Below are positions 1 through 57,981 of a stretch of 63,897 nucleotides of DNA, piece by piece. This DNA comes from a virus. The notes beneath the pieces were generated by a model. It was not told where the DNA came from. It was given only the letters and a program-made list of their open reading frames with translations, and did not search any database. Positions within the stretch are counted from its first letter, which is position 1; the number at the start of each line of letters is the position of its first letter. The translations under genes and the position numbers were made by a program. The stretch is from positions 1 through 63,897 of IMG/VR virus record IMGVR_UViG_3300046782_000223. One strand, written 5' to 3'.

Positions 1-126
1 GAAGAAGGCGCTGGATGATCAGCTGACGGAACAGCAGATCACCAAGTCCGCCCCGCAGATCGGGGCCAAGGTGATCGGGCTGGGCGGCGTCGACAGCTAC
101 TACACGCCGCAGCGAAGCGCCGCGAT
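1..126. repeat. Left copy of terminal direct repeat
   Basis: These 126 bases recur exactly at 63770-63895. The match then fails at one base (127 is c, 63896 is a). The repeat lies inside one reading frame that leaves the right end of the window and re-enters here, so the molecule is circular or terminally redundant. The length is close to a 127-mer assembly overlap, so it need not be the true packaging terminus. Confidence 0.95.
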
Positions 127-1930
127 CGACGCGGGCGTGGCACAGGCCGAAGCCCCGCCGCCCGACACCAGCATCATGAGCAGGCTGGCCCCCGTCCTGC
201 GCTCGGGCATGGCCCGGCTCACAGGGGCGTCGACCGGGGTCGGCGTGCCTCCGGCCCCGTTGGGCGTGGACACGACGGCCCTGGCGACAGGTGCGCCTCC
301 GGCCGCCACGCCGACAGCGCCCGGTTCAACCGCCGTCACCCCGGCCACCGTTGCGCCCGCCGCGCCGGCGACAGCTGCCCCGGCCGCGCCCGGCCTGCTG
401 CCGGGACTGCCGGCCAGTGCGACGCCGGCTGAAGCTGCCGACGTGGCCAAGGGTGCGGCGGCGGCGCAGGCCCTGCAGGCGCAGGGCGGCCCGACGCGGG
501 CCGCCGACGAGATCGACCGTCAGCGGTATCTGGCCAAGGCGTTTCAGGACAAGGGCATGCCTCAACAGGCCGACGCCGCCTGGAAGAAGTACCTGTCGCT
601 GACCCTCGACCGGAACATGTCCTCGATGGATTGGGCGAAGCCCGAGGACATGAGCAACATGATCTCGCGCATGTCCGGCCACCCGGTGCTGATCACGCCG
701 AACAAGGACAACCCGGGCAACTTCGACGTGAAGGTCGATGGCCAGGGGGCCTACAGCAACATCCCTCGCCAGGAGCTCAAGGCCAGGGCTTCGGGTCTGG
801 CCGGCGCGTCGATGGAGAGCGTCAACGCCGCGGTCGCCGGCTCCAACAAGGAGCAGATGGACCGCATGGAGGCTGAGACGCGTGCGCTGAGGGCGCACTC
901 GGAGAACACCCTGGCCCTCGCGCAGGCGGGGGAGGCTGGCGCGAATACCGCGGCAAAGGTCCAGGAGACCGCGAAGCTCAAGGAGAACTACGACAACGAC
1001 AAGTTCGTCGCGACCACGCCCAATGCGGTGCTTTATCCCGACGAGTACAACACCCGGCTGAACCAGGGCGCGATGGTCAACGGGAAGTACATGAGCAGCG
1101 AGCAGACCGTCGATCCGCAGGAACTGGTGGCGCTGCACAAGCAGACCAGCATCTACGGGGACCTCGCCACCGCCGCGCGCAAGGAGTGGCAGGGCAGTCA
1201 ATGGAAGCTGAACAACATCATCCAGATCGGCAAGACCGGGAAGACGCGCCCCGACGGCCAGCCGGAGTACGGGTTTGGCGTCCGCGGCCCTGACGGTCAG
1301 ATCGTCGGCTACTCTCAGTCCCTGGCAAGTGCAGAGAATGCCGCCTACCACATCAAGGAATACGGCGGTGATCCCAGGAAGGCCGCCGCCGTCATCAACG
1401 CCTACTTCGCGCAGCACCCCGAGGCGAAGGCTGCGGCGAACACCGTAGGTCCGCCGTCAGCCACCCCGGCCCCGAGCGCCGCGCCCGCCGCTGCACGCGC
1501 GCCCGCGTCCGCCCCGGCCGCCGCGCCGGCCGCTGCGCCTGCCGCCGCTCCTGCCGCCGCTCCTGCGGCCGCCACGCCAGCGTCACCCCCGGCCGCCGCG
1601 AAGGCGGCTGCGGACAAGGCCGTCACAGCTGCACGCGCCGCATCGCCGGCGGCCTCTGCGGGTGTCGGCCTATACGAGAAGGACCCGGCGAAGCGCGCCG
1701 CCATGGCCCGGGCGGCCGAGCAGAGCCATCAGGCCGACGTCTTCACCGAGGCGCACGGCTACATCACCAATCCGCGGAACGCGCAGCAGTATGTCGACGA
1801 CGGCAAGGTTGTCGCCACCTACCGTCAGACCCATCCCGCTGGCCGCCCGCCGCCGGAGATCATCGACAGGATGCACCGGATGGCGCTGTACGATCAGTAT
1901 CGAGCGACTGCGAATTCCGGTGGGCGCTAA
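1..1930 (+). CDS. Internal virion/ejection-type protein, 3' part
   Basis: The reading frame is open from base 2 and continues the gene that starts at 63654, so about 42 N-terminal residues are duplicated across the window ends. The product has two Ala/Pro-rich low-complexity linkers, one near bases 290-450 and a longer one near 1440-1620 with tandem AAP-type repeats. Between them is a hydrophilic, probably helical part. No enzymatic motif is visible. It sits between a protein with an S74-like chaperone tail and the 2454-residue ejection protein, and its TAA stop touches the next ATG with no gap. By position it is probably one of the internal proteins released with the DNA; no family was recognised. 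Confidence 0.7.
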   Translation, partial: KKALDDQLTEQQITKSAPQIGAKVIGLGGVDSYYTPQRSAAIDAGVAQAEAPPPDTSIMSRLAPVLRSGMARLTGASTGVGVPPAPLGVDTTALATGAPPAATPTAPGSTAVTPATVAPAAPATAAPAAPGLLPGLPASATPAEAADVAKGAAAAQALQAQGGPTRAADEIDRQRYLAKAFQDKGMPQQADAAWKKYLSLTLDRNMSSMDWAKPEDMSNMISRMSGHPVLITPNKDNPGNFDVKVDGQGAYSNIPRQELKARASGLAGASMESVNAAVAGSNKEQMDRMEAETRALRAHSENTLALAQAGEAGANTAAKVQETAKLKENYDNDKFVATTPNAVLYPDEYNTRLNQGAMVNGKYMSSEQTVDPQELVALHKQTSIYGDLATAARKEWQGSQWKLNNIIQIGKTGKTRPDGQPEYGFGVRGPDGQIVGYSQSLASAENAAYHIKEYGGDPRKAAAVINAYFAQHPEAKAAANTVGPPSATPAPSAAPAAARAPASAPAAAPAAAPAAAPAAAPAAATPASPPAAAKAAADKAVTAARAASPAASAGVGLYEKDPAKRAAMARAAEQSHQADVFTEAHGYITNPRNAQQYVDDGKVVATYRQTHPAGRPPPEIIDRMHRMALYDQYRATANSGGR

Positions 1931-4900
1931 ATGGCGACCAGCACCTTCAACCCGGCCGACTATGGTCTGACGCCGGTCAAGCCCGGCGAGTTCACACCGG
2001 TCGCCCGGGACTTCCCCGACAAGACGCCGCCGCCCGCGGCTGCGCCGGCTGACGCCGACCGCCATCCCCTCCTGGCCGGACTGAAACATGCTGGAACAGG
2101 GCTCACGGTCGGCCTGCCCTACGAGGCCCGCAAGCTCACTGGCCACCTGACGCCAGAGCAGGAGCAGGAAGCCCTCGCCAAGATCGCGGCGTCGAAGGCC
2201 GAGGAGGACAAGCTTCTCCCCGGTGGCCCGACCAGCCTGGGCGATATCCACGACCTCGGCGACGTCCTCAAGTTCGGCAAGGAGCAGCTGCTCTACGGTG
2301 CCCCACAGATCGCCCCGGCGGTGGTCGGCGGCATCGGCGGCAGCATCCTGGGGGCTGAGGGCGGACCGCTGACGGCGGCGGGCGGCGGTATCGCGGGTGC
2401 AGCCATGGGGCTGGGCCTGGGCCTGCCGGGGGCGACCGGGTCCGCGGTGACCGAAGACACCGAGGGCGGCACGAAGCCCCTGACCGACGTCGAGGCCGAG
2501 CGTGCGCCGGCTGTCGGCTTGGGCACGGCGACTATCAACGTCTTGCCGACCCGGTTCATTCCGGGCCTCAGCCGGGTGCCGACCCTGCTGGCCCCGCTGG
2601 CCAAGGGCATCATCGGCAAGACCGCCCTGCATACCGTCGAGGCTGGCGCGCAGGGCGCGCTGATGGGCGGCGCGCAGTCGGAGTTGACCCGCTACGGCCA
2701 GGACAAGGACCTGCTAAGCCCCGAGGCCGGGCAGGAGGCAGGCTCATCTGCGGCGTCGATGGGCGTGCTGGGCGCGATGGCCGGCGCGGTGACCGGGCCA
2801 TTCGCTAAGGGCAAGGCGAAGGCCAAGCCGGTCACCGAGAAGACCAAGGTCGATCCGATCGCACCGACCGGCCAGTCCGCCGACCTGCTGACCGGGGCGG
2901 CCGCGGACAATGCGCCGGCTGCGGACGACCGGGTCGGCGCGGCCAATCCGCCGGACGTCATCCACGGGCAGGCCCCGCCGAAGACCCTGGCCATCACCGA
3001 CCAGCGGCCCGGCGCGCGGCCGAGCGAGGTCTACGGCCCGGCCATCGCCAGCATCGAGAGCGCCGGCAGCGGCGACTACAAGGCGCTGGGTCCGGTGCTG
3101 AAGACCGGCAGCTACGCGGGCGACCGCGCCCACGGCCGCTACGGGATCATGGGCAACAACATCGCGGCGTGGTCCCGCGAGGCGCTGGGCCGCCCGGTGA
3201 CGCGTGAGGAGTTCGACAACAGTCCCGACATTCAGGACCGCATCTTCGACCACCAGTTCGCCAAGCTGATCCGGCAGTACGGCTCGCCTGAGGAGGCGGC
3301 CCGCCACTGGCTGGGCACCGGCAAGCACGACGCGCTGGGGACCACGCCTGACGCGTATGTTCAGAAGTTCCGCACCGCTCTTGGCGGCGCGACCGGCGAG
3401 CCGGGTGCGCCGGCTGCGGCCGCGCCGGGCGTCGACACCAGCACCTCGGCGGCCATCGCGCGCAACCCGATCCTGGCGCAGTTGATGGCCCACCTGACCG
3501 ACGCCGCCGAAGTGCCGGAGGGCGCGCAGCCGCCGCAGACCGTCGTGAAGCTGGCCGCTTCGATCGCCGCCGGCGGCGACCACGCGGCGGCGGCGCTGGG
3601 CGACGAGCGGCAGTCCATCGTCCGCGATCACGAGAGCCTGCAACGCAACGAGGGCGACCTGACGCGTGCCCAGCAAGAGGAGCAGCTGACCCGGCTGGCC
3701 CAGCGCGAGAAGATTTTGACAGCTGCGCAGGATGCAGCGGAGAAGCTGGCCAGGGACCGCGGACCGACCCTGGTCACCGAGCCGCAGCCCGGCATGGTTC
3801 ATGCCGACACCCTGCCCGGCGGCCCGCAGCCGCAGACCCCCGAAGGGGTTGCGCTGACCGATCGGCTGCGCCTGCAGGAAGCCCACGACGCCGCCAATGA
3901 GCGGTCGGCCAAGGCGATGATGGAGGCCGGCCACGTCGCCACCGGCCAGTCGGCGTTCGAGAAGGCGGCCCGCGGCAAAATCCTGGGTCGGATGATCGGC
4001 GACAAGACCGAGCTCAATCCCCGCGAGGCGTTTCAGCAGCACATCACCAAGGCGGGCTACCACCCGGAGATCAGCGACAGCGAGCATGCCCTGCTGCAGG
4101 ACGAGGAACTGCACCGGCAGCGGGAGGCGACGAACGCCGCACGCGAGCAGGCCAACGCTGAAGCCGAAGCTCTGGCCAAGCAGCAGCCGCAGGGCCAGGA
4201 CAATTTCGGCATCCAGAGCCGCGAGGAGGTCGCCGCCCGGCGAGCGCCCGCGCCGAAGGAAGAAGCGCCGGCCCCGGAGCCCGTGGCCGAAGCGCCCGCA
4301 CCGACGCCCGAGCAGGAGATCACCGAGAACATCAGGACGCGGGGCGAGACCCACATCCAGAACCGCGAGCTTGGCCCGGTGAAGGCCAAGTGGTTCCGCG
4401 AGGGGATGAAGCAGGCGTTCGGCGAGGAGCACACCCCGCCGACCACGGTCAAGACGACCCAGGAGAATTTCAAGGCGGGCCAGGACTTCGTCGCCGAGGA
4501 GCGGGCGCATCAGGCGCGCGAGCACGCCACCGCCGCCGAGCAGGAACGTGCGGCGCGCGAGGCCAGCACCCCGCCCGAACGCCCGGCCCCGCTGCCGAAG
4601 CGCACCCAGGCCCTGCGCAAGGAACGCGTGCGCGAGACAGCGCCGACCGGCGCTGGCCAGCCGCGGCTGGAAGCTCTGCGCAAGGAGGCCGCCCGCGCCC
4701 GGCTAGGCGAAGCGCCGGAGGCGGCCAAGGAGGCGGCGGCCAAGTCGAAGGAGAAGGCCGAGGTCAAGGCCGAACCGAAGAAGGCTCCGCCCCCCGCCGC
4801 CGAGAAGGCCAAGGAGGCGTCGAAGGCCAAGGAGCCGGCGCTCGCCGAGAAGGCCAAGGCTGCGCCCAAGGTCGAGAAGCCGGCGGCCGAGAAGGCCAAG

Positions 4901-7900
4901 GCCGCATCGAAGGAGAAGGCCGCCCCGAAGCCCAAGCCCACCACCGAGGTCGAGACGAAGGCCAAGGCCATCGTCGAGGAGCGGGCCGAGACCGCGACCA
5001 AGGAGCAGGCGGCCGCCGAGGCCGACGCCAAGACGCGTGCCGACTTCACCGACAGCCTGGACGATAAGGTCGGCAAGGACCTGAGCGCCTTCCAGAAGCA
5101 GCGTCTGGACCAGCTGGCCAACACCAAGATCGGCGACCAGCATATCGTTGACGCCGACGTCCTGTCGAAGGCGCTCAAGGTTGAGGAGGAGCGATACGCG
5201 AAGGGCGGCCACGATGCGCAGATCGGCCAGGGCGAGACCTTCAAGGACTTCGTGACCCGAGTGCAACAGGCCCTTCGCGAGGGCGAGAAGTCAGGGCTCA
5301 AGGCACAGGAGATTACCCGTCGTGACGTGATGAAAGGCACCGGGGGCGTGGCCGGTGTGCTGGGTGCATTGAAGGCCATACCAGCTGAGGCGCGCACGAA
5401 GGTCGACGACAACGGCCGGGTGAAGGCGGCGATCAAGAAGGGCAGCTTGCACGAGACCGTGCAGGCTATCGCCGACACCACGAAGAACCCGGCCTACCGC
5501 ACCCTGGCCCGGTCGATGCTGCTGGGCGGCTTCGCCAAGGATGCACGGATTGAGGCGTGGGACCTGGGCGAGGGCAAGCTGAATGTGACAGGCATCACCG
5601 ACCCGTCGAGTGGGAACGTGAAGGTGTTCCACACCAGCGAGGGTGCGACCGGGCTATCCGAGGAAACCATCCTGCACGAGGCCCTGCACTCGTGGCTGGC
5701 CGCTCGTTACAAGGACCTTGAGACCTTCCCTGCCAACCGGGATTTGCTGGGCCTGAAAGGCACCCAGAAAGCGGAGCCGTTCATCAAGGACTTCCTCGCG
5801 CTGCACAAGCAGTTCAAGGCCATGATGGGCAAGAAATTCCCGGAGATGATCGACAGTGACGGCAAGGATGTTCAGTGGTGGGCGCACTTCTCCGCGGCTG
5901 ATCCTGACGAGTTTTTCGTCCGCAGCCTGACTGAACCCGACCTGCAGAAATTCCTGCGTGAGCACAGCATGACCGGCGAGAAGATCGCCCCGAACGCTCC
6001 GACCTCGATGTGGGCGCGGTTCGTCCAGATGGTCCGCAACCTGTTCGGCATCAAGCCGCCGGCGTCGGCGCTCGATGACGTCATGCGCGCGGGGTGGGGC
6101 GTGTTGAAGTCCGGCACCCTCGACGAGATGCGTCCGCTCAACAAGCGGGGCGTGGCTGAATGGGAGAGCGCGGGTCGTTCCGAGGGCGGTCGGAAGATGT
6201 TCGCGACCGGGGCCGATGAAGCTGCATCGGTGCAGGAGACCACCGACCAGCTGAAGAAGTCCGCCGTTGGGCCAGGTCCGAAGATCAAGGCTGAGGCCGA
6301 GCCCAAGACCAAGGAGGAGGTCGAGAAGGCCGTCACCGGCGACCCGCCGCCTCTCCCCAAGAACGGCCAGTTCAGCCTGGACCCCGCGGCCAAGGACGTC
6401 CCGCCGCGGATGAAGACCGAGGACGCCGTCGAGCGCCGCACGGCTGTCGACACCGCCCGCGCAGCGATCAATCAGTCCGGGGCCGACCTGTTGAAGAAGG
6501 GCGGCCTGTTCCTCAGCGAGACTGAGGACATCGTCAACATGGGCAAGAAGTACATGCCCTCGTTGGTCGACCTGAACGAGGCGCACTCGCGCTCGCTGGC
6601 GCTGGGCCGCACCATGAAGCTTCGGCTGGCCACTCTTGATGATCGCATCCGCGCGTTGCCGGCCGAATTCCAGGGCACCAAGCCCGGCTCGCTCGGGGAC
6701 TTCCTCTACGACAGCACGACCCAGAAGAAGTGGGGCTTCGACCCGACCTGGGTGAAGGCCAACGAGATCGACCCGGCGATGGTCAAGCGGTTCGACGCCA
6801 TCGAGGCGAAGTCGCCCGAGGCCGCGCAGATCATCAAGGACATCTTCGAGTTCAACCACGACGCCCGCACCGCGATGGGCGACGCGACCCTGGGGGCGAT
6901 CGACGCCGAGTATGACCCGGCCATCGCTGAGGCCACGACCGACGCCGAGCGCACCGCCTTGGAGGCGCAGAAGGCCGATGCGATCAAGCACCACTCGCGG
7001 GTCTTCGACACCCAGGAGGGCCTGCCCTACACGCCCACCAAGCGACAGGGCGCGTGGGCCGTCGTCGGCCAGAGCAAGGAGATGATGGCCGCGAAGAAGG
7101 CTGGCGACACCAAGGCCATCGCCGAGATGCGCAAGAACGATGATCACTACTACGTGGACATGCGCGACACCGCCGCCGGCGCGGAGGTCCTGGCCGGTCA
7201 CCTGCGGGAGAAGTTCGGCAAGGAGGGGACGTCTCTGTTCGAGCGGGGTCAGGGCGGCAACCAGGGCATCAGCCCCAAGGAGATGCTGCTGGCGTTCAAG
7301 CGGTTCCAGGGCTCGATGGACACCACCGGCATGGGGATGAAGGCGTCGGCCCGCATCTCCCAGATGGCCCGCGATTTCTACCTGCACTCGCTGTCCGAGG
7401 ACAACGCGCGCAAGGGCGAACTGCGGCGCGAGAACGTCCCGGCCAGGGACCCGGTGACCGGCGAAGTGCTGGACATGGTCCAGTCGTTCCTGTCGCGCGG
7501 GCAGGCCACCGCCGACTACATCGCCTCGATCTCCAACAACGGCGCGATCCAGAAGGCGCTGAACGGCATGAACGAGGAGGTCTCGTCGATCACCGGGCCG
7601 GAGCGCACGCCCGCGCAGCGCATCCACAATGAGGTCATGTGGCGCTACGAGGCCAACCTCGGGGCGAAGTCCAACCGGACGGTCGACAACATCCTCAAGG
7701 CCACGTCGATCAACATGCTGCTGACGCAGCCGTTCTACTACATCCAGAACGCCACCCAGGTCGCGGCGATCAGCCACCCGGCGATGGCCAAGCAGTTCGG
7801 CTGGGCGCGGTCCGCCGGCCATCTGGCCAAGGCGTACGGCGACTGGTTCGGCATGACCAAGAACATCGGCCTGCTGGACCGCCTGCACTACGACGACGCG

Positions 7901-9295
7901 CCGGCCGACGTGCGCGACGTGCTGCACCAGCTGGCCGACCGCGGCCGCCTCGATGCCGGGATCACCATCGAGAACCGTCCCTGGTACATGAACGGCGACG
8001 GCTTGCTGCCGAAGACGTGGAACAGGTTCGACCAGTTCCTGCGCATGGCCCCGCAGCGCATCGAGGTGATGAACCGCGTGGTCACCGGCATCGCCACCTA
8101 CCGCGCCGCCCTAGAGAAGGGCCTGTCCGAGGGCGAGGCGTTCAATGCCGCCTCCGAGCTCATCCGCACCACGCATGGCGACTACTCGGGCTGGAATTCG
8201 CCGCGGGTGTTCACGCAGTTCGGGCAGGCCGGGCGGCTGGCTGGCCAGTTCCGCAAGTTCCAAGTGATCATGGCGGCCAACGTCGTGCGCGACTTCAACA
8301 CCATCATGAAGGGCGCGACCTTGGAGGAGAAGGCGGTGGGGATGAAGGGCCTCGCCTTCCTCAGCGCCCACATGGCCGCGGTCGGCGGCATCGTCGGCCT
8401 GCCGGGCACCGCCCTGTTCGGACCGCTCGTCGCTCAGCTGATGAACATCACCAACCCGGGCCAGCACAAGGAGTGGAGCGACTGGCAGAACACCCTGCGC
8501 GAGGGCCTGGGAGCCGGGAAGGGCGGCGACAAGGCCAACCTGCTGGCCGACCTGCTCTACAAGGGTGCGCCCTACGCGCTGATGAAGTTCGACACCTCCG
8601 ACCGCCTGGGCATGGGCAACATGCTGGCGCTCGCGCCCTACAGCGGCCTCGACGAGGCGGGCTTCGACAAGGACAAGTGGTACTCCGTGGTCGGCCAGAT
8701 GATGCTGGGGCCGGCCGGCAAGATGGTGGCCAAGGGACTGAGCGGCCTCGACTACGGCGTCAACCACGACGACTGGACGCGGATGGCCGAGAGCGTCGCG
8801 CCCGGGGTCCTTGGCTCGTCGGCCAAGGCGTACCGCCTGAAGACCCACGGGCTGGTCAACAAGGCCGGGGTGCAGCTGCTCAAGCCGGAGGATATCAGCT
8901 ACTACGACGCCGCCCTGACGGCGATCGGGGTGAACCCGTCGCACCTGACCGACCAAGCCGAGAAGACGTCCGACCTCTACAACGTCGGCCAGTTCTACGA
9001 CGCCAAGACGGCCAAGCTTAAGATCGACTTCATCAAGGCGCGCGAGGCCAACGACGCCGCCAGGACCCAGGATATCCGCGCCAAGTGGCGGGACATGCAG
9101 ATGGCCCAGCGTGGCCAGGGGTTGAAGCCCTCGCCGATGAGCACCCTCTACAAGGCCCCGCGCGAACTGGCGAAGAAGCAGCACGAGGTCATGGGCGGCG
9201 TGGCCTACGACAAGAGCGATCGGCGCTTCGTCATGCAGATGATGCTCGACCGGGCGGACATGGAGGAGCAGGCGCGCAAGGCCGCCGAGAGCTAG
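1931..9295 (+). CDS. Giant internal virion protein with lytic transglycosylase and zincin motif
   Basis: This 2454-residue protein is the largest in the genome and ends the rightward module. Residues about 370-485 look like a soluble lytic transglycosylase, with IESAGSGDY (catalytic Glu probably E376) followed by a GRYGIMG block. A Lys/Ala/Glu-rich linker covers about 925-1010. Residues 1129-1154 (TRRDVMK, then a hydrophobic stretch ending AEA) look like a Tat signal placed internally. An HEALH zinc-protease motif is at 1249-1253, with a DEFF segment downstream. The C-terminal thousand residues resemble the large polyvalent or ejection proteins of podoviruses. Likely role: released with the genome to open the peptidoglycan and conduct DNA. 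The domain assignments rest on motifs only. Confidence 0.85.
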   Translation: MATSTFNPADYGLTPVKPGEFTPVARDFPDKTPPPAAAPADADRHPLLAGLKHAGTGLTVGLPYEARKLTGHLTPEQEQEALAKIAASKAEEDKLLPGGPTSLGDIHDLGDVLKFGKEQLLYGAPQIAPAVVGGIGGSILGAEGGPLTAAGGGIAGAAMGLGLGLPGATGSAVTEDTEGGTKPLTDVEAERAPAVGLGTATINVLPTRFIPGLSRVPTLLAPLAKGIIGKTALHTVEAGAQGALMGGAQSELTRYGQDKDLLSPEAGQEAGSSAASMGVLGAMAGAVTGPFAKGKAKAKPVTEKTKVDPIAPTGQSADLLTGAAADNAPAADDRVGAANPPDVIHGQAPPKTLAITDQRPGARPSEVYGPAIASIESAGSGDYKALGPVLKTGSYAGDRAHGRYGIMGNNIAAWSREALGRPVTREEFDNSPDIQDRIFDHQFAKLIRQYGSPEEAARHWLGTGKHDALGTTPDAYVQKFRTALGGATGEPGAPAAAAPGVDTSTSAAIARNPILAQLMAHLTDAAEVPEGAQPPQTVVKLAASIAAGGDHAAAALGDERQSIVRDHESLQRNEGDLTRAQQEEQLTRLAQREKILTAAQDAAEKLARDRGPTLVTEPQPGMVHADTLPGGPQPQTPEGVALTDRLRLQEAHDAANERSAKAMMEAGHVATGQSAFEKAARGKILGRMIGDKTELNPREAFQQHITKAGYHPEISDSEHALLQDEELHRQREATNAAREQANAEAEALAKQQPQGQDNFGIQSREEVAARRAPAPKEEAPAPEPVAEAPAPTPEQEITENIRTRGETHIQNRELGPVKAKWFREGMKQAFGEEHTPPTTVKTTQENFKAGQDFVAEERAHQAREHATAAEQERAAREASTPPERPAPLPKRTQALRKERVRETAPTGAGQPRLEALRKEAARARLGEAPEAAKEAAAKSKEKAEVKAEPKKAPPPAAEKAKEASKAKEPALAEKAKAAPKVEKPAAEKAKAASKEKAAPKPKPTTEVETKAKAIVEERAETATKEQAAAEADAKTRADFTDSLDDKVGKDLSAFQKQRLDQLANTKIGDQHIVDADVLSKALKVEEERYAKGGHDAQIGQGETFKDFVTRVQQALREGEKSGLKAQEITRRDVMKGTGGVAGVLGALKAIPAEARTKVDDNGRVKAAIKKGSLHETVQAIADTTKNPAYRTLARSMLLGGFAKDARIEAWDLGEGKLNVTGITDPSSGNVKVFHTSEGATGLSEETILHEALHSWLAARYKDLETFPANRDLLGLKGTQKAEPFIKDFLALHKQFKAMMGKKFPEMIDSDGKDVQWWAHFSAADPDEFFVRSLTEPDLQKFLREHSMTGEKIAPNAPTSMWARFVQMVRNLFGIKPPASALDDVMRAGWGVLKSGTLDEMRPLNKRGVAEWESAGRSEGGRKMFATGADEAASVQETTDQLKKSAVGPGPKIKAEAEPKTKEEVEKAVTGDPPPLPKNGQFSLDPAAKDVPPRMKTEDAVERRTAVDTARAAINQSGADLLKKGGLFLSETEDIVNMGKKYMPSLVDLNEAHSRSLALGRTMKLRLATLDDRIRALPAEFQGTKPGSLGDFLYDSTTQKKWGFDPTWVKANEIDPAMVKRFDAIEAKSPEAAQIIKDIFEFNHDARTAMGDATLGAIDAEYDPAIAEATTDAERTALEAQKADAIKHHSRVFDTQEGLPYTPTKRQGAWAVVGQSKEMMAAKKAGDTKAIAEMRKNDDHYYVDMRDTAAGAEVLAGHLREKFGKEGTSLFERGQGGNQGISPKEMLLAFKRFQGSMDTTGMGMKASARISQMARDFYLHSLSEDNARKGELRRENVPARDPVTGEVLDMVQSFLSRGQATADYIASISNNGAIQKALNGMNEEVSSITGPERTPAQRIHNEVMWRYEANLGAKSNRTVDNILKATSINMLLTQPFYYIQNATQVAAISHPAMAKQFGWARSAGHLAKAYGDWFGMTKNIGLLDRLHYDDAPADVRDVLHQLADRGRLDAGITIENRPWYMNGDGLLPKTWNRFDQFLRMAPQRIEVMNRVVTGIATYRAALEKGLSEGEAFNAASELIRTTHGDYSGWNSPRVFTQFGQAGRLAGQFRKFQVIMAANVVRDFNTIMKGATLEEKAVGMKGLAFLSAHMAAVGGIVGLPGTALFGPLVAQLMNITNPGQHKEWSDWQNTLREGLGAGKGGDKANLLADLLYKGAPYALMKFDTSDRLGMGNMLALAPYSGLDEAGFDKDKWYSVVGQMMLGPAGKMVAKGLSGLDYGVNHDDWTRMAESVAPGVLGSSAKAYRLKTHGLVNKAGVQLLKPEDISYYDAALTAIGVNPSHLTDQAEKTSDLYNVGQFYDAKTAKLKIDFIKAREANDAARTQDIRAKWRDMQMAQRGQGLKPSPMSTLYKAPRELAKKQHEVMGGVAYDKSDRRFVMQMMLDRADMEEQARKAAES

Positions 9296-44436: not shown

Positions 44437-44498
44437 CACGTCAGCCTTGACCTCTCGCTAAGAGGTGCGCCCAGCCGCGCAGCGGCTGGGCTTTGTTT
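44429..44498 (+). terminator. Hairpin plus intrinsic terminator before the large terminase
   Basis: The first hairpin is AAGGCTGA-cacg-TCAGCCTT (44429-44448), overlapping the stop of the preceding gene. The second has arms GCCCAGCCGC and GCGGCTGGGC (44469-44491) followed by TTTGTTT, a classic rightward terminator. Terminase starts 27 bp later. Confidence 0.88.
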
Positions 44499-44524
44499 CA
44501 GTCTTGTGGATAAGTCCGGTCGGC

Positions 44525-45943
44525 ATGACCGAGACCCTCGTCTATTCGCCGCCGCCCAGCGTGGCCGGGTTCTTCCTCGACGACAGGTTCATCGACCTGA
44601 TCGTCGGGCCGATCGGCAGCACCAAGACCACCGCGGCGATCATGAAGATCGCCTACCACGCCTCGCAGATGGCCCGCTGCCGCGACGGCGTCCGCCGCTC
44701 AAAGGCGGTGTGGGTCCGCAATACGCGTGAGCAGCTGAAAGATACGTCGATCCCAGACTTCCTGCGGTGGTTCCCGGATGGGCTGGCGGGGCAGTTTATT
44801 CGGACAGACCTGAAATTCATGCTGCGCTTCGGCAACGTGGAGTGCGAGGTTCTGTTTCGGGGACTTGATGACCAGAACGACGTTCGCCGCCTGCTCTCCC
44901 TGCAGACGTCGTTTGGCATCCTCGATGAATTCCGGGAGATCAATCAGGCGGTCTATGACGCCCTGCAGGGCCGGGTCGGCCGCTACCCATCGAAGCTCGA
45001 CAACGGCGTCGGGTGTGTCACCGATGACGGCCGCGAGAACAAACACATCTGGGGGTGCTCCAACCCGCCGGACATGGACAGCCATTGGGAGAAGCTCCTC
45101 TCCGATCCGCCGTCCAACGTCAGCGCCCACTTCCAGCCGAGCGGCCTCAGCGCCGAGGCCGACTGGCTAGAGTACCTGCCGCAGGACTACTACACCAACC
45201 TCGCCGAGGGGAAATCGCAGGACTGGATCGACGTCTACATCCACGCCAAGTTCGGGCGCACCCTGGCCGGCCTGCCCGTCTACCGCACCTTCAAGCCCGA
45301 CTTCCACATCGCCAAGGCCCCGCTCAATCCGATCAGGATCATCGACCGGCCGCTGATCATCGGCATGGACTTCGGCCTCAACCCAAGCTGCACCATCAAC
45401 CAGATCGACCTGCGCGGGCGGTTCCTGACCTACGACGCGATGACCAGCGACAACATGGGCATCGAGCGGTTCATCGAGCAGCAGCTGAAGCCCAAGCTGG
45501 CGTCGAAGTATCCGGGGTTCTCGATCGTCATCGTCGGCGACCCGGCCGGCCAGCAGCGCGCCCAGACCAACGAGCGGACCTGCTTCGACATGCTGCGCCA
45601 AGCCCGGCTGCACGCCATCCCGGCGCGCACCAACAACATCGCAGCGCGCATCGCCGCGGTCGAGAAGCAGCTGAACCGGCAGATCGACGGCGGCCCCGCC
45701 CGGCTCCTCTGCCCCGAGGGGGCCAAGCCGCTGATCGCCGCCTACCGGGGCGGCTACCGCTACAAGCTGAAGAAGTCCGGCGACGCCGAGGACATCCCCG
45801 ACAAGGGCTCGCCCTACAGCCACATCGCCGACGCCGACCAGTACGCCGCCCTGCACGCCGACGCCGAGCAGGGGGGTAATCCCTGGACAGCGCGCCAGCA
45901 GGCGCGTCCGGTGCAGAAGGTCAACGCGCTCGGCTGGACGTGA
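44525..45943 (+). CDS. terL: Large terminase subunit
   Basis: The 472-residue protein has Walker A VGPIGSTKTT, Walker B SFGILDEFREI, a coupling WGCSNPP segment, and the nuclease acidic residues in IIGMDFGLNPS, IVIVGDPAG and HIADADQYAAL. It powers DNA packaging at the portal and cuts the genome. ATG 44525 was chosen over an upstream frame that would run through the terminator. A terminator lies just upstream, so expression depends on read-through or its own promoter. Confidence 0.92.
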   Translation: MTETLVYSPPPSVAGFFLDDRFIDLIVGPIGSTKTTAAIMKIAYHASQMARCRDGVRRSKAVWVRNTREQLKDTSIPDFLRWFPDGLAGQFIRTDLKFMLRFGNVECEVLFRGLDDQNDVRRLLSLQTSFGILDEFREINQAVYDALQGRVGRYPSKLDNGVGCVTDDGRENKHIWGCSNPPDMDSHWEKLLSDPPSNVSAHFQPSGLSAEADWLEYLPQDYYTNLAEGKSQDWIDVYIHAKFGRTLAGLPVYRTFKPDFHIAKAPLNPIRIIDRPLIIGMDFGLNPSCTINQIDLRGRFLTYDAMTSDNMGIERFIEQQLKPKLASKYPGFSIVIVGDPAGQQRAQTNERTCFDMLRQARLHAIPARTNNIAARIAAVEKQLNRQIDGGPARLLCPEGAKPLIAAYRGGYRYKLKKSGDAEDIPDKGSPYSHIADADQYAALHADAEQGGNPWTARQQARPVQKVNALGWT

Positions 45944-45955
45944 TAGGAGACCCGC

Positions 45956-48196
45956 ATGGCCGTCAGCCCGTCCCCCTATGGTCAGCCCGCCACCGTCGGT
46001 CCCCAGGTCGGCCTGCCGGCCACGGCGACCACCGCGCCGGCCCCCTCCAACGTCGTGGTCCTGCAGCACCCGGCCATGCGCGCCATGAGCCTGGGAGCCC
46101 TGCAACAGCGCGACGCCGATGCGCGGTCGGCCGCCGAGGACCGGCAGGCCCAGCCGCTGATCACCGGGCTGGCCGGCCACATCCACCACAAGTTCGTGCT
46201 GGCGCGCGATGCGCGGCGGTTCGCCGACGTCGAGCAGCGGATGATCGACAACATGCGGGCGCGCAGGTCGATCTACACGCCGCAGAAGCTGGCGGCCATC
46301 CGCACCGAGGGCGGGAGCGAGGTTTACGCGGGCGTCACCGGCCAGAAGTGCCGGGCGGCCTCGGCGTGGATCAGGGACGTGATGATGTCGACGGGCGAGG
46401 ATCGGCCGTGGTCGATCAAGCCGACCAAGGTCCCCGAGCTTCCGCCGGCGATCAACGACCTGATCGTCAAGCAGGCGATGATCCCGCTGAAGGACCAGCT
46501 GATGGCCGCGGCCGCCGGCCAGGGCGAGCCGCCGGACCCGATGTCGACGGTCCACATGATGTCGATGATGAAGGACCAAGCCCTGGAAGCCATCCGCCAG
46601 GAGGCCGACAAACGCTGCGGGCGCATGGCCGACAAGATGGAGGACCAGCTGACCGAGGGCGGGTTCCTCGACGCGATGGACGCCTTCATCAACGACCTGA
46701 CCACCTTCCCGACGGCCATCCTCAAGGGGCCGGTGATCCGCATGAAGCCGGTGCTGACCTGGGGGCCGGACAGCCAGCCGGTGGTGCAAATCAAGCTCGT
46801 GAAGGAGTGGGATCGGGTCGATCCGTTCAAATTCTACCCTTCCCCTGCGGCAACCTGCATCGACGACGGGGACACGATCGAGAAGCACCGGCTCTCACGA
46901 AAAGACCTGCAGGACCTCAAGGGCGTGCCCGGCTACGACGACGGGGCCATCGACATGGTCCTCGACAACTACGGGCGCAGCGGCCTGCTGAACTACATCT
47001 ACGACGACATGGACCACGACGACGCCGCCGGCCGGCCGCCGACCACGCTGGCCGCCAACCCCGACGGGCTGATCGACGCGCTGCAGTATTGGGGGTTCGT
47101 GCAGGGCCAGCTGCTGCTCGATTGGGGGATGACCCGGGCGCAAATTCCCCAGCCGATGAAGGAGTACATGATCGAGGGGTGGCTGGTCGGACCCTACGTC
47201 ATCAAGGCCATGCTCAACCCCGACCCGCTGGACCGGAAGCCCTACTATGCGACGTCGTTCGAGAAGGTGCCGGGGAGCTTCTGGGGCCACAGCGTCTGCG
47301 ACCTCGTGCGCGATCCGCAGGACATCTGCAACGCCGCGGCCCGGTCGATGATCAACAACGCGGCCCTGGCCTCAGGGCCGCAGGTTGGTATCCTAACGGA
47401 CCGCATCGCGCCCGGGGAGCAGATCACCCAGCTGAAGCCGTGGCGCATCTGGCAGCTGAACAGCGACCCGATGGGTGGGGCGTCGGCGGACCCGCCGATC
47501 CGGTTCTTCCAGCCGCAGTCGATCCTCGGCGACCTGATGCAGCTGTTCGACAAGTTCACCACCATGGCCGACGAGTACTCGGGCATCCCGCGCTACATGA
47601 CCGGCAACGCGGCGGCCGGGGGTGCTGGCCGCACCGCGAGCGGCATGTCGATGATGATCGGCAACGCCGGCAAGATCATCACCGCGGTGATCCAGAACAT
47701 CGACCTCAACATCATGGAGCCCCTCTTGGAGCGGCTCTACTATTTCAACATGCGCTACGAGACCGACCCGGAGCTCAAGGGCGACGTCTGCATCTCGGCC
47801 AAGGGTGCGAGCAACATCACCGCCAAGGAGAGCGCCCAGGTCCGCCGCAACGAGTTCCTGGCGACCACCGCCAACCCGATCGACATGCAGATCATGGGCA
47901 TCGAGGGCCGCGCCGCGGTGCTGCGCGAGACGGCCAAGACCCTGCAGATGGACACCGACAAGGTGGTGCCGGACACCGACGAACTTCGGCAGCGCATGCA
48001 GGCCAAGGCGGCGTTGGCCGCTCCCGACCCGAATGCCCCGCCAGGAGCCCCAGGCGGCCCGCCACCGGCCGGTGGCGGGCCGGCGGCAGGTGCGCCCGCC
48101 GGCGGCACACCGCCCGGTCCTGGGGCCACCCAGGGCAATGCGCAGCAGCTGATGGACGGGGCTCCGGTGACCGACACCTTCGGCCCCGGGCATTGA
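45956..48196 (+). CDS. Portal protein
   Basis: The 746-residue protein follows the terminase, as expected. It is rich in long helices, with DRVDPFKFYPSPAATCIDDG and RYMTGNAAAGGAGRTASGMS, which are typical of podovirus portal proteins, and a Pro/Gly/Ala-rich C-terminal tail (PGAPGGPPPAGGGPAAGAPA). It forms the dodecameric ring through which DNA enters and leaves. AGGAGACC precedes the ATG. Confidence 0.88.
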   Translation: MAVSPSPYGQPATVGPQVGLPATATTAPAPSNVVVLQHPAMRAMSLGALQQRDADARSAAEDRQAQPLITGLAGHIHHKFVLARDARRFADVEQRMIDNMRARRSIYTPQKLAAIRTEGGSEVYAGVTGQKCRAASAWIRDVMMSTGEDRPWSIKPTKVPELPPAINDLIVKQAMIPLKDQLMAAAAGQGEPPDPMSTVHMMSMMKDQALEAIRQEADKRCGRMADKMEDQLTEGGFLDAMDAFINDLTTFPTAILKGPVIRMKPVLTWGPDSQPVVQIKLVKEWDRVDPFKFYPSPAATCIDDGDTIEKHRLSRKDLQDLKGVPGYDDGAIDMVLDNYGRSGLLNYIYDDMDHDDAAGRPPTTLAANPDGLIDALQYWGFVQGQLLLDWGMTRAQIPQPMKEYMIEGWLVGPYVIKAMLNPDPLDRKPYYATSFEKVPGSFWGHSVCDLVRDPQDICNAAARSMINNAALASGPQVGILTDRIAPGEQITQLKPWRIWQLNSDPMGGASADPPIRFFQPQSILGDLMQLFDKFTTMADEYSGIPRYMTGNAAAGGAGRTASGMSMMIGNAGKIITAVIQNIDLNIMEPLLERLYYFNMRYETDPELKGDVCISAKGASNITAKESAQVRRNEFLATTANPIDMQIMGIEGRAAVLRETAKTLQMDTDKVVPDTDELRQRMQAKAALAAPDPNAPPGAPGGPPPAGGGPAAGAPAGGTPPGPGATQGNAQQLMDGAPVTDTFGPGH

Positions 48197-48229
48197 CAAA
48201 TTGGGGACGCGCCACCAGCGTGCCGCCGG

Positions 48230-48481
48230 ATGCTGACGAAGCCCACCCCGGAAGCCCTCACCGCGCTCGCGCAGCTTGAGGAGACCCCGAGGTGGCGCGA
48301 CATCAACGCCATGCTTGAGGTCGAGATCGAGGCGGCGACGAAGCGACTGCTGGGCGCGCGTGACAACGCAGACGTCCACGAGCTTCGGGGCCGGGTGTCG
48401 ACCCTACGAGAATTCCGGCAGACCGTGCTCGATGCACGGGCTATGCTGGCCACAGTGGGACGAACAATCCCACTCGCATAG
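48230..48481 (+). CDS. Small helical protein between portal and scaffold
   Basis: The 83-residue product is one long helical unit (DINAMLEVEIEAATKRLLGA) and is probably coiled-coil. Similar small proteins lie after the portal gene in other podoviruses. Its function is unknown. Confidence 0.55.
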   Translation: MLTKPTPEALTALAQLEETPRWRDINAMLEVEIEAATKRLLGARDNADVHELRGRVSTLREFRQTVLDARAMLATVGRTIPLA

Positions 48482-48516
48482 CTGACCAGAAGGACACCGG
48501 CTGAGGCCGACCCTAG

Positions 48517-49494
48517 ATGCAGCTGGAGATGCGGATGAGAGATCGAGTGCCCGAGGCCGTGAAGCGGCAAGCGGAAGCCATGGACGCCCTGGACGCGCAA
48601 CTCGCGCCACCCCAGGAGACCCCAGAGGACCCGCCCGCCCGCGAGCCGCCGGCAGAGCCACCGACGCCGCCACCGGCCGCGGAGGACTGGCAGCACAAGT
48701 TCCAGACCCTGCAGGGGAAGTACAACGCCGAGGTGCCGCAACTGCGGAACCAAGTCGACACACTCACCCGGCAGATCGAGGAGCTTCGCGCCGCCAAGCC
48801 CGCTGCGACACCGGAGACGCCGCCGACGCCGGACCTGCCTGCGGTGACCAAGCTGGTCACGGACGAGGACACCGAGACCTACGGAGACGACCTGATTGAC
48901 CTGATCCGCCGGGTGGCCGTGGAAACGGACGCGCGGGAGAAGGCCAAGCTGCAGGGCGAGCTCGCCGATATGCGCAAGCAGATGGCGGCCCAGGCGACAC
49001 AGGTTGAGACCGTCAGGGGAAACGTCGCGGACGAGCGGCGGGCAGCCTACTTCACCGCCTTGGCGAAGCTCTGCCCGACCTATGAGGAGACCGACGCGCG
49101 CCAGGACTTCAAGGACTGGCTGCTGCAGCTGGACGACTTCAGCGGGCTCGTACGCAACGACATCCTGCAAACCGCCTTCCACGCCTACGACGTGGACCGG
49201 ACGGCCAAGGTCTTCAACCAGTTCCTCGGGGCCACAGCACCTGCGCCCGCACCGCCGACGCCCACCCCCGCGCCCGTCGATCCGCAGGCCGAACTGTCCG
49301 AACTGGTGTCGCCGGGCCAAGCCCGCGCCGGCACGGTGTTCACGCCTGACGACGGCCAGAAGATTTGGGCCATTTCCGAGATGGACCAGTTCTACAAGGA
49401 CTTCGCCAGGGGGGAGTACCGCGGCCGGCTGGACGACGCGAAGCGCATCGAGGCGGACATCGACAAGGCTCTCGCTGAAGGACGCGTCCGCTAG
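48517..49494 (+). CDS. Probable scaffolding protein
   Basis: The 325-residue protein has an acidic Pro-rich N-terminal part, a coiled-coil (HKFQTLQGKYNAEVPQLRNQ onward; QGELADMRKQMAAQATQVET), a Pro-rich linker and a charged helical C-terminus. Its location directly before the major capsid gene and its composition fit a scaffold that shapes procapsids and is then removed. ATG 48517 may be followed by a better start at 48532 or 48538. Confidence 0.7.
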   Translation: MQLEMRMRDRVPEAVKRQAEAMDALDAQLAPPQETPEDPPAREPPAEPPTPPPAAEDWQHKFQTLQGKYNAEVPQLRNQVDTLTRQIEELRAAKPAATPETPPTPDLPAVTKLVTDEDTETYGDDLIDLIRRVAVETDAREKAKLQGELADMRKQMAAQATQVETVRGNVADERRAAYFTALAKLCPTYEETDARQDFKDWLLQLDDFSGLVRNDILQTAFHAYDVDRTAKVFNQFLGATAPAPAPPTPTPAPVDPQAELSELVSPGQARAGTVFTPDDGQKIWAISEMDQFYKDFARGEYRGRLDDAKRIEADIDKALAEGRVR

Positions 49495-49504
49495 GGCTGC
49501 GTCC

Positions 49505-49527
49505 GGGTGAGGGCTCGACCCTCACCC
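49505..49527 (+). other. Hairpin in the capsid leader
   Basis: Arms GGGTGAGGG and CCCTCACCC form a 9-bp stem with loop ctcga, immediately before the capsid ribosome binding site (GCGGGAG). It could stabilise the capsid message. Confidence 0.7.
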
Positions 49528-49543
49528 CCAGCGGGAGACGCAC

Positions 49544-50515
49544 ATGGCCCAGCAAGGCCCCGCAGTCCAACCTCCGTTCGCCACGACCCCGCCCTACTCG
49601 GGGACGTTCATTCCGCAGCTGTGGTCAGGCAAGCTGAACGTCAAGTTCTATGCCACCACGGTGTTCGGTGAGATCGCCAATACGTCCTACGAGGGCGAGA
49701 TCAAGGGGATGGGTGACACCATCACCATCAACAACATCCCGACGATCGCGATCTCCGACTACACCATCGGCCAGAACCTCAACTACCAAGTGCCGACCCC
49801 GAACAAGGTCGACCTGAACATCGACCAAGCGAAGTACTTCGGGGTCAACGTCTCCGACGTGCTGGAATATCAGGCCAAGCCGGCGCTGATGAGCATGTTC
49901 ACGGACGACGCGACGAAGCAGATGGCGATCACCATCGACCGCGCCATCCTGCTGGCCGAGTACAACAACGGCGCGGCCGCCAACAAGGGCATGACCGCCG
50001 GCGTCATCTCGCAGGCGATCCCGCTCGGGGCCGACGCGACCCCGATCGACCTCAGCACCACCCCCGACCAAATCCTCAAGACCATCCTGGGGATGGCCAC
50101 CTGCCTCGACGAGCAGAACGTGCCCGACACCGAGCGGTGGCTGGTGATCGACCCCGCCACCCGGCTGCGCCTGATGCAGTCGCCCCTGCAACAGGCTTAC
50201 CTGACCGGGGACGACAAGAGCATCCTGCGCAACGGCAAGCTCGGGGTCATCGACCGGTTCACCATCTACCTGTCGAACCAGCTGCCGAAGGCCGCGGCCG
50301 GCTTCAACCCGGACGGTTCGGCGAACGCCGGCGCGCTGCAGCGCCGCGTCCTCCTGGCCGGCCACTCCTCGGCGCTCACCTTCGCCGCCCAGATCACCAA
50401 GACCGAGAGCCTGCAGAACCCGAACGACTTCGGGCAGCTGGTCCGCGGCCTGAACGTCTACGGCAAGAAGATGATCAAGCCCGAGGCGTGGGTCACGGCG
50501 CTGGTCCAGAAGTAG
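49544..50515 (+). CDS. Major capsid protein
   Basis: The 323-residue protein has the order expected for an HK97-type coat of the P22 or podovirus kind: IPQLWSGKLNVKFYATTVFG near the N-terminus, GDTITINNIPTIAI, then ADGVLEYQAK-like VSDVLEYQAKPALM and DRAILLAEYNNG, and C-terminal LVRGLNVYGKKMIKPEAWV. It lies between the scaffold and adaptor genes and has a hairpin on each side. Confidence 0.85.
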   Translation: MAQQGPAVQPPFATTPPYSGTFIPQLWSGKLNVKFYATTVFGEIANTSYEGEIKGMGDTITINNIPTIAISDYTIGQNLNYQVPTPNKVDLNIDQAKYFGVNVSDVLEYQAKPALMSMFTDDATKQMAITIDRAILLAEYNNGAAANKGMTAGVISQAIPLGADATPIDLSTTPDQILKTILGMATCLDEQNVPDTERWLVIDPATRLRLMQSPLQQAYLTGDDKSILRNGKLGVIDRFTIYLSNQLPKAAAGFNPDGSANAGALQRRVLLAGHSSALTFAAQITKTESLQNPNDFGQLVRGLNVYGKKMIKPEAWVTALVQK

Positions 50516-50539
50516 GGTCGGTCCTCTGCTGGACAGGGA

Positions 50540-50567
50540 CGCCGGGCAGGCCGACAACGGCCCGGCG
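50540..50567 (+). terminator. Stem-loop after the capsid gene
   Basis: Arms CGCCGGGC and GCCCGGCG enclose a 12-base loop and are followed by CTCTGTCTTG. It is a probable partial terminator or 3' end stabiliser that separates the capsid level from downstream genes. Confidence 0.6.
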
Positions 50568-50587
50568 CTCTGTCTTGTGAGACCCCC

Positions 50588-51274
50588 ATGGCCGTCACCG
50601 CACAGACCATCCTTACCCGGGTCCGCACGCAGCTGATCGACGAACTGCCGACCCAGCGGTGGAGCGACGATGAGCTTCTCCGCTGGCTGTCTGACGGTCA
50701 GCGGACCCTGGTGGCGATGGACCCCTCGCTCGGCAACGTGACCGACGCCCAGCCGCTTGTGGCGGGCACCCAGCAGCATCTCCCGGACGGGGCGTTCTTC
50801 CTGCTCGACATCCAGCGGAACCTGGGGATGGACGGCCTGACCCCGGGACGCGTGATCACCGTGGTCTCCCGCGAGAACCTCGACCGGGTCGACCCCAACT
50901 GGCACGCGTCGCTCAGGTCGCAGGTGACGCTGCACTTCATCTACGACCCGAAGCAGCCGCTGATCTACTACGTCTACCCGCCCTCGATCGGGGGCAACTT
51001 CGTTGACCTCAGCCGCGCGATCAGCCCGCCCGACTTCACCGCGATGACGGACGTCATGTTCGTCGAGGACCTCTACCAGACGGCGCTGTTCGACTACGTG
51101 ATGTTCCGCGCTCACCAGAAGGACACCGACTACAGCGCCGGCAACGATAAGGCGCAGGCGTACCTCGGCCTGTTCCAAATCTTCGGCCAGACCCACGAGG
51201 CCGCGAAGCTGGACGTCAGCCCGAACAAGGAGCTTGGGCCGGCGACGCTCACCGACAAGGGAGCCGCCGCGTGA
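50588..51274 (+). CDS. Head-tail adaptor protein (DUF6682-like)
   Basis: The 228-residue protein begins with VRTQLIDELPTQRWSDDELL followed by RWLSDGQRTLVAMDP, the pattern of adaptor proteins that join the portal to the tail in podoviruses. It follows the capsid gene, and its end overlaps the next start (GTGA). Confidence 0.7.
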   Translation: MAVTAQTILTRVRTQLIDELPTQRWSDDELLRWLSDGQRTLVAMDPSLGNVTDAQPLVAGTQQHLPDGAFFLLDIQRNLGMDGLTPGRVITVVSRENLDRVDPNWHASLRSQVTLHFIYDPKQPLIYYVYPPSIGGNFVDLSRAISPPDFTAMTDVMFVEDLYQTALFDYVMFRAHQKDTDYSAGNDKAQAYLGLFQIFGQTHEAAKLDVSPNKELGPATLTDKGAAA

Positions 51275-51924
51275 CCGCGATCTTCGACCTCACTCCGCTG
51301 ATCATGCCCTTCGTGCGCGACTGCGCCACGCCGGCGGCGATCGTGGCCGCGCGCTTCGCCTGCATCGAGTTCTACAAGAACACGCTGTGGCAACAGGAGG
51401 AGCTTGAGCCGATCGACCTCGTGGCCGGGCAGGCCACCTATCCGGTCGACACCATGCCCAACACCGTGCCGTCGGCGGTGATGAGGGTGAAGATCGACGG
51501 GATCGCCAAGCCCTTGGAATTCGTCACCAAGGACAAGCTCGACCAGCTGTACCGCTATACGGACTGGACCACCCTGGTGGGCAACCCGCGCTACGTCACC
51601 CAGATCGTCACCGACCAGATCATCCTCGTGCCCGCGCCGGACGACGTCATCGCCCAGCCCAAGGCCATGAAGCTGCTGGTCGCCACCCAGCCGACGCCGG
51701 ACGCCGACGAGATCGACGACGAGGTGTTCAACTACTACGCCGAGCCCCTGGCCTATGGGGCTCGAGCCCGGCTCTACGAGACCGCCGGCCAGCCCTACTA
51801 CGACCCGGCCAGCGCGCCGTTCTGTTGGACCAAGTTCTACGCCGGGGTCAGCGAGGCCAAGGCGCGGCGGATGCGCGAGCACACGCGGGCTGTGCAGACC
51901 GTTCAGATGAGGCCGTGGGTATGA
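51271..51924 (+). CDS. Second connector or tail-tube-like structural protein
   Basis: The 217-residue protein has ARFACIEFYKNTLWQQEELE and a C-terminal ARARLYETAGQPYYDPASAP, a pattern found in virion connector genes of related phages. The GTG start overlaps the preceding stop. Its function is assigned by position. Confidence 0.55.
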   Translation: MTAIFDLTPLIMPFVRDCATPAAIVAARFACIEFYKNTLWQQEELEPIDLVAGQATYPVDTMPNTVPSAVMRVKIDGIAKPLEFVTKDKLDQLYRYTDWTTLVGNPRYVTQIVTDQIILVPAPDDVIAQPKAMKLLVATQPTPDADEIDDEVFNYYAEPLAYGARARLYETAGQPYYDPASAPFCWTKFYAGVSEAKARRMREHTRAVQTVQMRPWV

Positions 51925-52313
51925 GCACGGCGCGCATCAAGCTGGTGGTCGGTGACACCCGCCCGCAGATTTATGTCCAGCTAAAACAGCCGGGCAATCC
52001 GCTCGACATCCCGCTCGACGTCTCGACCGCGCAGACCGTGCGCCTGAAGTTCAAGGTGTGGGGCGGGGACACGGTGCTGTTCACCTTGGAAGGTGAGCCG
52101 CAACCGGGGACCTTGGAGGCCGACCTGCAGACGCCGGACCTGACGCAGTACCCGGTCAAGGGCAGCGGCGGCCGCGTGATGTTTCCCTTCCTGCAGGGGC
52201 AGCTGGACATCGCGCCCGGCCGCTACCGCGGCGAGATCGAAGCCACCTTCGGACCCAACAACATTTTCACCGCCTTCGCGCCTTTGGAGTTTGAACTGCG
52301 TGAGGACTTCTGA
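51921..52313 (+). CDS. Beta-rich tail-associated protein
   Basis: The 130-residue protein is beta-rich (VVGDTRPQIYVQLKQPGNPL, then GRYRGEIEATFG). It resembles the N-terminal beta domains of tail or baseplate proteins (BppU-like). The ATG overlaps the preceding stop. Its exact role is unknown. Confidence 0.5.
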   Translation: MSTARIKLVVGDTRPQIYVQLKQPGNPLDIPLDVSTAQTVRLKFKVWGGDTVLFTLEGEPQPGTLEADLQTPDLTQYPVKGSGGRVMFPFLQGQLDIAPGRYRGEIEATFGPNNIFTAFAPLEFELREDF

Positions 52314-52819
52314 TGTCGGACCGTGGGAGCGTCATCACCGCGGTCCGTGACGTCGCGCTGAAGTGGGACGCCTGGATCGACTACAAGGCACCCCCTCGGC
52401 ATGCTGACCAGCTTGTGGTCTTCGACGACTTCGTGCCGCAGGTGATCTACGACCGAACTGCCGATGATGCGGTGACGGTGACCGACACCATCAGCACGAT
52501 GCTGGTGTTCAACGCCGTCCTCGCCGACAGCGTGACCGTGGTTGACGCGCTCAGCAGGACAGCGATCTTCGGTCAGAGCTTCGCCGACAACGTCGCGATG
52601 GACGACAATCTGACGGCGGGGCTGGACCGCCTGCTGGCCTTGACCTTGTCGGACGCCATCGTGATGGCGGATGCACTTTCCGCTGCCGGCGGCCCCGTGC
52701 TTACGCTTGGTGATGTGGTGAGCATGAGTGACGCCGGGGTGGTCAACCACTATGACTACGCCGGGTTGGACTACTTCCTGACCCCGTTCGATTACGTCGG
52801 CGAGACGAGGGTCTTCTGA
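52313..52819 (+). CDS. Tail-region protein with short internal repeats
   Basis: The 168-residue protein carries about five copies of a D-x-V-x-V-x-D unit at 24-30-residue spacing (ADDAVTVTDTIS, ADSVTVVDALS, ADNVAMDDNLT, SDAIVMADALS, GDVVSMSDAG). The repeats suggest an elongated beta structure. Its start and stop overlap both neighbours by one base. Its function is unknown. Confidence 0.55.
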   Translation: MSDRGSVITAVRDVALKWDAWIDYKAPPRHADQLVVFDDFVPQVIYDRTADDAVTVTDTISTMLVFNAVLADSVTVVDALSRTAIFGQSFADNVAMDDNLTAGLDRLLALTLSDAIVMADALSAAGGPVLTLGDVVSMSDAGVVNHYDYAGLDYFLTPFDYVGETRVF

Positions 52820-55469: not shown

Positions 55470-55535
55470 ACCTGCTTATGTTGCACCTCACCCCCCCAAC
55501 AGGTAGCGTCCGACCGCGACGCGGGAGATCAGCCC

Positions 55536-55985: not shown

Positions 55986-55988
55986 GCC

Positions 55989-57967: not shown

Positions 57968-57981
57968 CGGAGGAGACCCCC

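Follow-up and report, generated by a model that had tools for sequence, protein, structure and literature searches.

The window, i.e., the whole stretch of viral DNA analysed here (63,897 nucleotides), harbours near its first end a giant open reading frame (ORF), designated P0001, with the following features:

1931..9295, plus strand: giant ORF P0001 (2454 aa), a probable ejected virion protein of the polyvalent type, judging from its PLxRFG domain, DarB-like stretch and gene position
3008..3511, plus strand: residues 360–527, a conserved, probable SLT-like domain (phrog_24990, E 3e-28; motif reading)
5315..5392, plus strand: internal twin-arginine signal, residues 1129–1154 (TRRDVMK, a weakly hydrophobic stretch, and a basic K followed by AEA)
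5405..6130, plus strand: zincin domain travelling together with the signal, residues 1159–1400 (A4 and A7 alignments, AlphaFold, profile match)
5675..5689, plus strand: HEALH catalytic motif, residues 1249–1253 (H, E and H invariant in A4 and A7)
5906..5911, plus strand: D1326–E1327, probable third zinc ligand region (DE invariant in A4 and A7)
7139..9178, plus strand: PLxRFG (tail-700) domain, residues 1737–2416 (NF032893)

The interval 44465–63654 encodes terminase, the major head protein, proteins of the virion structure and an internal virion protein family, and its genes continue into the giant gene, which stands at the end of this structural cluster when the latter is read across the contig ends. 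The contig carries a terminal direct repeat of 128 bp (window positions 1–128 and 63770–63897, 127/128 identical, one mismatch) and is therefore probably complete, being either circular or circularly permuted. An ORF at 2–1930 has an open 5' end, and its start is likely situated near the opposite contig end. Within P0001, the PLxRFG domain scores 220 bits against a cut-off of 100 (E 5e-65), and the DarB-like antirestriction family phrog_10089 matches residues 1835–2419 (E 1.6e-29). The region 360–527, matched by a family without an assigned function (phrog_24990), resembles part of the tail tape measure proteins from phages of Sinorhizobium and Rhizobium and is probably lytic-transglycosylase (SLT)-like, an assignment based on motif reading and not on a family match. 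Collectively, the PLxRFG domain, the structural neighbours and the homologous zincin in the solved internal virion protein 9sfn suggest that P0001 is likely packaged in the virion and ejected from it; the initial annotation, which described a giant ejection protein, is supported in this grouping by the SLT-like region, the PLxRFG domain and the position at the structural-cluster end.

Residues 1129–1154 of P0001 read TRRDVMKGTGGVAGVLGALKAIPAEA. The residue numbers reported initially are exact, with TRRDVMK at 1129, AEA at 1152–1154 and HEALH, the sole HExxH of the protein, at 1249–1253; the coordinates 1931–9295 are right for the ORF, the feature proper spanning 5315–5392. The full layout of a signal of the twin-arginine translocation (Tat) type, comprising RR, a hydrophobic run and AEA, proved real and is tied to the zincin both physically and evolutionarily. 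The RRDVM motif fits the TatP consensus RR.[FGAVML][LITMVF], the uncharged core following RR is 12 residues long, and the c-region (LKAIPAEA) combines a basic residue with an AxA-type site. On the whole protein, the HMM scores are weak for both Pfam TAT_signal (PF10518; 13.8 bits, E 0.058) and TIGR01409 (14.1 bits, E 0.045); when the module is scored by itself, TIGR01409 gives 18.7 bits and exceeds its curated cut-off of 16.7. Taken alone, such HMM support is suggestive only, and it is the family conservation that decides. The segment starts at residue 1129 of 2454, far from the N-terminus, and is therefore classed here as a Tat-like internal signal, distinct from the classical Tat signal peptides; the common predictors, SignalP and TatP, are designed for N-termini. 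In the AlphaFold model of the module, the signal is located outside the folded zincin (pLDDT <50 for model residues 1–46), so a structural need for the RR pair is unlikely.

The relatives were found by scans seeded with zincin patterns (EETILHE, PDE-FFVR and alike), with the RR region unused as a seed, which yielded giant ORFs from many phage contigs and one contig of a metagenome-assembled genome (MAG). An RR signal precedes the zincin in 20 distinct divergent lineages, P0001 included, e.g., SRRDFLKTASSIAVGAALPRGLNA (L059), TRRDFLKVGAGFAVTAALGNKFSA (L049), DRREFLAGVAAVAAAGVAPKVNA (L024) and SRRNVLLGALASAAGVRANA (L047), with an RR-to-HExxH spacing of 112–141 residues across the 20 modules. The signal is located at residues 402–2668 of the giant ORFs (residue 80 in L059, where the contig end truncates the ORF) and is followed by about 1100–1650 residues (2917 in L030 and 1924 in L029). 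Two alignments were built, A4 (13 rows) and A7 (20 rows), and RR is present in 13/13 and 20/20 rows, respectively, the rows having been chosen for carrying it; the fair denominator is the zincin clade, where 20 of the 22 members retain RR, the exceptions being L012 and L027. In A7, identity to the first row is 17–47%, and no more than nine columns show full conservation, namely those of two Arg, one Gly, H-E-H, D-E and one Gln, the Arg columns being invariant partly because the rows were picked for RR. One of the exceptions, L027, harbours at about residues 1080–1110 a degenerate signal, VEREDSLASLASALVTALGVKIKA, where RE replaces RR and the hydrophobic stretch is kept, and represents a natural test case.

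The TatP pattern is reported to cover 97% of its training set and to match 15% of those cytoplasmic proteins in which an RR occurs early (PMC1182353). It fits 19/20 modules versus 40 of the 219 RR pairs located elsewhere in these proteins (18%; Fisher p 4e-12, the rows not being independent), and this family comparison rules out a chance occurrence of RR. The motif approaches S/T-R-R-x-F-L-K: the residue preceding RR is S or T in 15/20 modules, and L occupies the RR+4 position in 16/20. All 20 modules feature an uncharged, weakly hydrophobic stretch of 10–23 residues after RR (best 19-residue Kyte–Doolittle mean 0.7–1.5), and in 16 of them a basic residue, a known Tat feature (PMC1182353), precedes the cleavage-like site. 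Strict AxA is found in 12/20, several others ending in VRA, VNA or LNA; hence, of the two elements whose conservation had been proposed for checking by alignment, RR is kept by 20/22 clade members while strict AxA is retained less consistently. At E<=1, the NCBIfam models TAT_signal_seq and formate_TAT match 9/20 and 10/20 modules, respectively, and the Arg codons of RR vary synonymously among the relatives. It is likely that selection acts on the segment as a Tat-type signal module.

A further line of evidence came from a blind search with the A4 profile in 385 bacterial genomes of the class to which L059 belongs, which recovered the L059 module and, besides it, ten weakly scoring sites. At eight of these, the match falls on RR signals 2–19 residues from a Met near the ORF start, i.e., on putative Tat-like signals, the other two looking like chance. 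As far as sequence can tell, this result is the strongest test of the Tat likeness beyond RR. The L059 module (JAGRDO010000181.1), a giant-type ORF from a Rhodobacteraceae MAG and the only match returned by the second genome-contig scan, is the only copy in a bacterial bin; it resides on a 4.5-kb contig and may represent a prophage or stray phage DNA. This bin, the single bacterial genome bin with the module, contains a tatC gene and hints at the host group of the signal-bearing clade. Neither two genome-contig scans nor the 385 genomes yielded a free-standing cellular zincin with a Tat signal at its N-terminus, and tblastn retrieved neither a cultured phage nor a plasmid containing the signal-bearing clade, the cultured matches opened being zincins lacking the segment.

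The signal and the zincin are, to judge from pairwise comparison, one portable module within many otherwise unrelated giant proteins. Taken from the signal on (305 residues), the module is similar in 184/190 pairs (blastp, E 1e-3), whereas the 312 residues upstream are similar in 8/190 and the 600 downstream in 23/190, the flank counts being lowered somewhat by low-complexity filtering and a few flanks being cut by contig ends. The initial annotation rightly tied the signal to the zincin but missed this mobility across unrelated proteins. The giant protein of L002 (L002:7344-15077), a close relative, matches P0001 at residues 341–885 and 1474–2438 with nothing between; in place of the module, the intervening part carries the different zincin motifs HETVH and HEVQH and lacks an RR signal, an apparent module swap. 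The domains accompanying the module in relatives include LPD38, LPD23, ART-PolyVal, SNF2 and methylase, along with PLxRFG in P0001. An ART-PolyVal ADP-ribosyltransferase directly follows the module in L050 (residues 2874–3026) and L055 (residues 1099–1249), and LPD38 is also located after the zincin.

In the zincin tree, all 20 signal bearers fall within a group of 22 (support 97/95) separate from the zincins of phiKMV, N4-like phages, Pradovirus and Parlo, and the segment and its motif are absent from the related zincins of phiKMV, N4-like phages and Pradovirus. The topology fits a single gain of the signal followed by two losses, the tree having long branches and an unsure deep order. The zincin core itself is modelled by AlphaFold with pLDDT mostly 83–97; the model aligns in VIA-align with lethal factor (Z 6.2) and with the C1 domain of the N4 virion RNA polymerase (vRNAP) (Z 5.9, 176 residues, 17% identity), Z values near 6 being modest, and Foldseek returned no PDB match under E 0.001. 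The module profile matches the zincin of the internal virion protein 9sfn_G (E 2.4e-14), and the predicted fold contains HExxH and a downstream Glu, with H, E, H, D and E invariant. The 9sfn_G and fold matches agree with the polyvalent-protein zincin assignment by Iyer et al. (PMC5512222), and the domain is a putative metallopeptidase of the polyvalent-protein clades.

The module shares with the polyvalent zincins of Iyer et al. 2017 (PMC5512222) a setting in giant multidomain proteins (SNF2/methylase, ART-PolyVal, LPD38), the HExxH motif plus glutamate and the lethal-factor-like fold, but differs by the internal Tat-type signal that accompanies one clade of zincins here. Those zincins and their proposed self-processing are already known, and the main text of that paper (PMC5512222) mentions neither signal peptides, twin-arginine, Tat nor the periplasm. 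The C1 domain of N4-like vRNAP and phiKMV gp37 are likewise homologous zincins of ejected internal virion proteins, yet they lack the RR-hydrophobic segment and occupy a separate side of the tree. The segment resembles classical N-terminal Tat signals (TIGR01409, PF10518) in its RR, weak hydrophobic core, basic c-region residue and AxA-like end, and differs from them in its internal position. A precedent for such a position is provided by actinobacterial Rieske proteins, where an internal Tat signal directs the C-terminal domain across the membrane (PMC13186574); unlike these cellular polytopic membrane proteins, the phage proteins have as many as 2667 residues ahead of the signal. Among open-licence papers, no report of internal Tat signals in ejected or virion proteins of phages was found.

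The reading we favour, at a confidence slightly short of even, is that an internal Tat signal fused to a zincin serves as a mobile module of ejected proteins and is used by the host Tat system after ejection. The sequences show the signal, its conservation and internal position, its linkage to the zincin and the kind of protein carrying it; we infer the Tat engagement, its direction, the post-ejection timing, the cleavage and the periplasmic role. The giant protein would be packaged and then ejected into the host, so bringing the segment and the zincin to the cytoplasm, where the zincin would fold. Host TatBC would bind the RR motif, and the hydrophobic stretch would insert as a hairpin with its N side cytoplasmic and the zincin side periplasmic; the folded zincin would then cross the inner membrane or stay tethered on its periplasmic face. 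A possible cut by signal peptidase after AEA (residue 1154) would part the upstream portion from the zincin portion. The chances that host Tat really engages the segment are about even, and the broader proposition that ejected giant proteins include a folded protease re-exported over the inner membrane via an internal host-Tat signal (injection followed by re-export) is more doubtful.

Several observations weigh against this favoured reading: the individual HMM scores are borderline, strict AxA is present in just 12/20 modules, and the 1100–1650 residues after the signal would, if not cleaved beforehand, be a very large load for Tat. Ejection is inward, so that outward export would be a second step; the general view is of one-way, inward movement for ejected phage proteins. 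In addition, ART-PolyVal (L050, L055) and LPD38 lie after the zincin, and an ADP-ribosyltransferase is expected to require cytoplasmic NAD; such cytoplasm-type domains downstream speak against the C-terminal half being simply exported in its entirety. The fate of this large C-terminal part is the chief difficulty: the zincin may be freed first, or the hairpin may form only with a tethered zincin, or Tat may not be used.

Were Tat not used, the RR pair and the hydrophobic stretch might keep the protein anchored at the inner membrane after ejection, the charges only setting its topology. Such an anchor would suit the basic residues flanking the stretch and the proposal that the N4 vRNAP remains membrane-tethered by a linker after ejection (PMC12633501); still, it is rather unlikely, as the stretch is short, its Kyte–Doolittle values of 0.7–1.5 are under those of a usual transmembrane helix, and an anchor would not call for an exact Arg pair or for L at RR+4. 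It is also unlikely that the lethal-factor-like zincin cleaves the chain it belongs to at the basic-then-hydrophobic motif, separating the polyvalent halves. Auto-processing by such zincins was proposed by Iyer et al. 2017 (PMC5512222), and the structural alignments with lethal factor (Z 6.2) and N4 vRNAP C1 (Z 5.9) and the fairly fixed distance to the active site are in line with it. On the other hand, cleavage in cis leaves unexplained the uncharged Ala/Gly-rich stretch of 10–23 residues, the basic residue before AxA and the likeness to N-terminal Tat signals; the N4 vRNAP is packaged unprocessed (PMC5512222), while the lack of the motif along with the segment in the related zincins (phiKMV, N4-like, Pradovirus) also counts against it.

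The same sequence evidence as that for the favoured reading would fit an export from the producing cell, where Tat would send some of the new zincin to the periplasm late in infection, possibly for lysis, envelope change or superinfection block, with other copies being packaged. New protein is then cytoplasmic and folded, the normal situation for Tat, but this route would divert a virion protein with its C-terminal domain from packaging, and no separate short form is encoded, which leaves it quite unlikely. The initial annotation had also raised a captured fragment of a cellular Tat substrate. As a relic of a Tat-exported cellular or moron zincin, with a signal devoid of a present role, the segment would account for a module that begins at the signal, like a stand-alone exported protein, for the single origin on the tree and for the loss of RR in L027 and L012. 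This idea found no support and is improbable: the signal survives in 20/22 clade members, even where identity is only about 20–30%, across deep divergence that altered the flanks and linkers beyond recognition, and the Arg codons change synonymously. Least of all would an internal translation start, yielding a short product whose N-terminus carries the signal, explain the segment, and it was rejected: P0001 has a GTG 22 codons before RR with AAGGA 4 bases upstream of it, but this site is unconserved, no start codon ahead of the signal is conserved among the relatives, most of the other relatives lack a Shine–Dalgarno-like site, L023, L024 and L059 have no ATG/GTG/TTG within 45 codons upstream of RR, and the signal is therefore truly internal.

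If host Tat does act on the ejected module, the conserved internal signal would represent a route back to the periplasm for ejected phage proteins, one clade of the commonest polyvalent-protein domain, the zincin, would gain a function, and Tat would become a host factor for some phages. In a published screen, tatC mutants were favoured under some Klebsiella phages (not known carriers of the signal–zincin module), and a SignalP search of phage proteins gave no Tat signal (PMC13412088). Internal signals could escape searches of this type, since the predictors examine N-termini only. The module also occurs in single open frames of very large size, e.g., G396 (L050; 7100 aa), G392 (L026; 6825 aa) and G393 (L030; 6804 aa).
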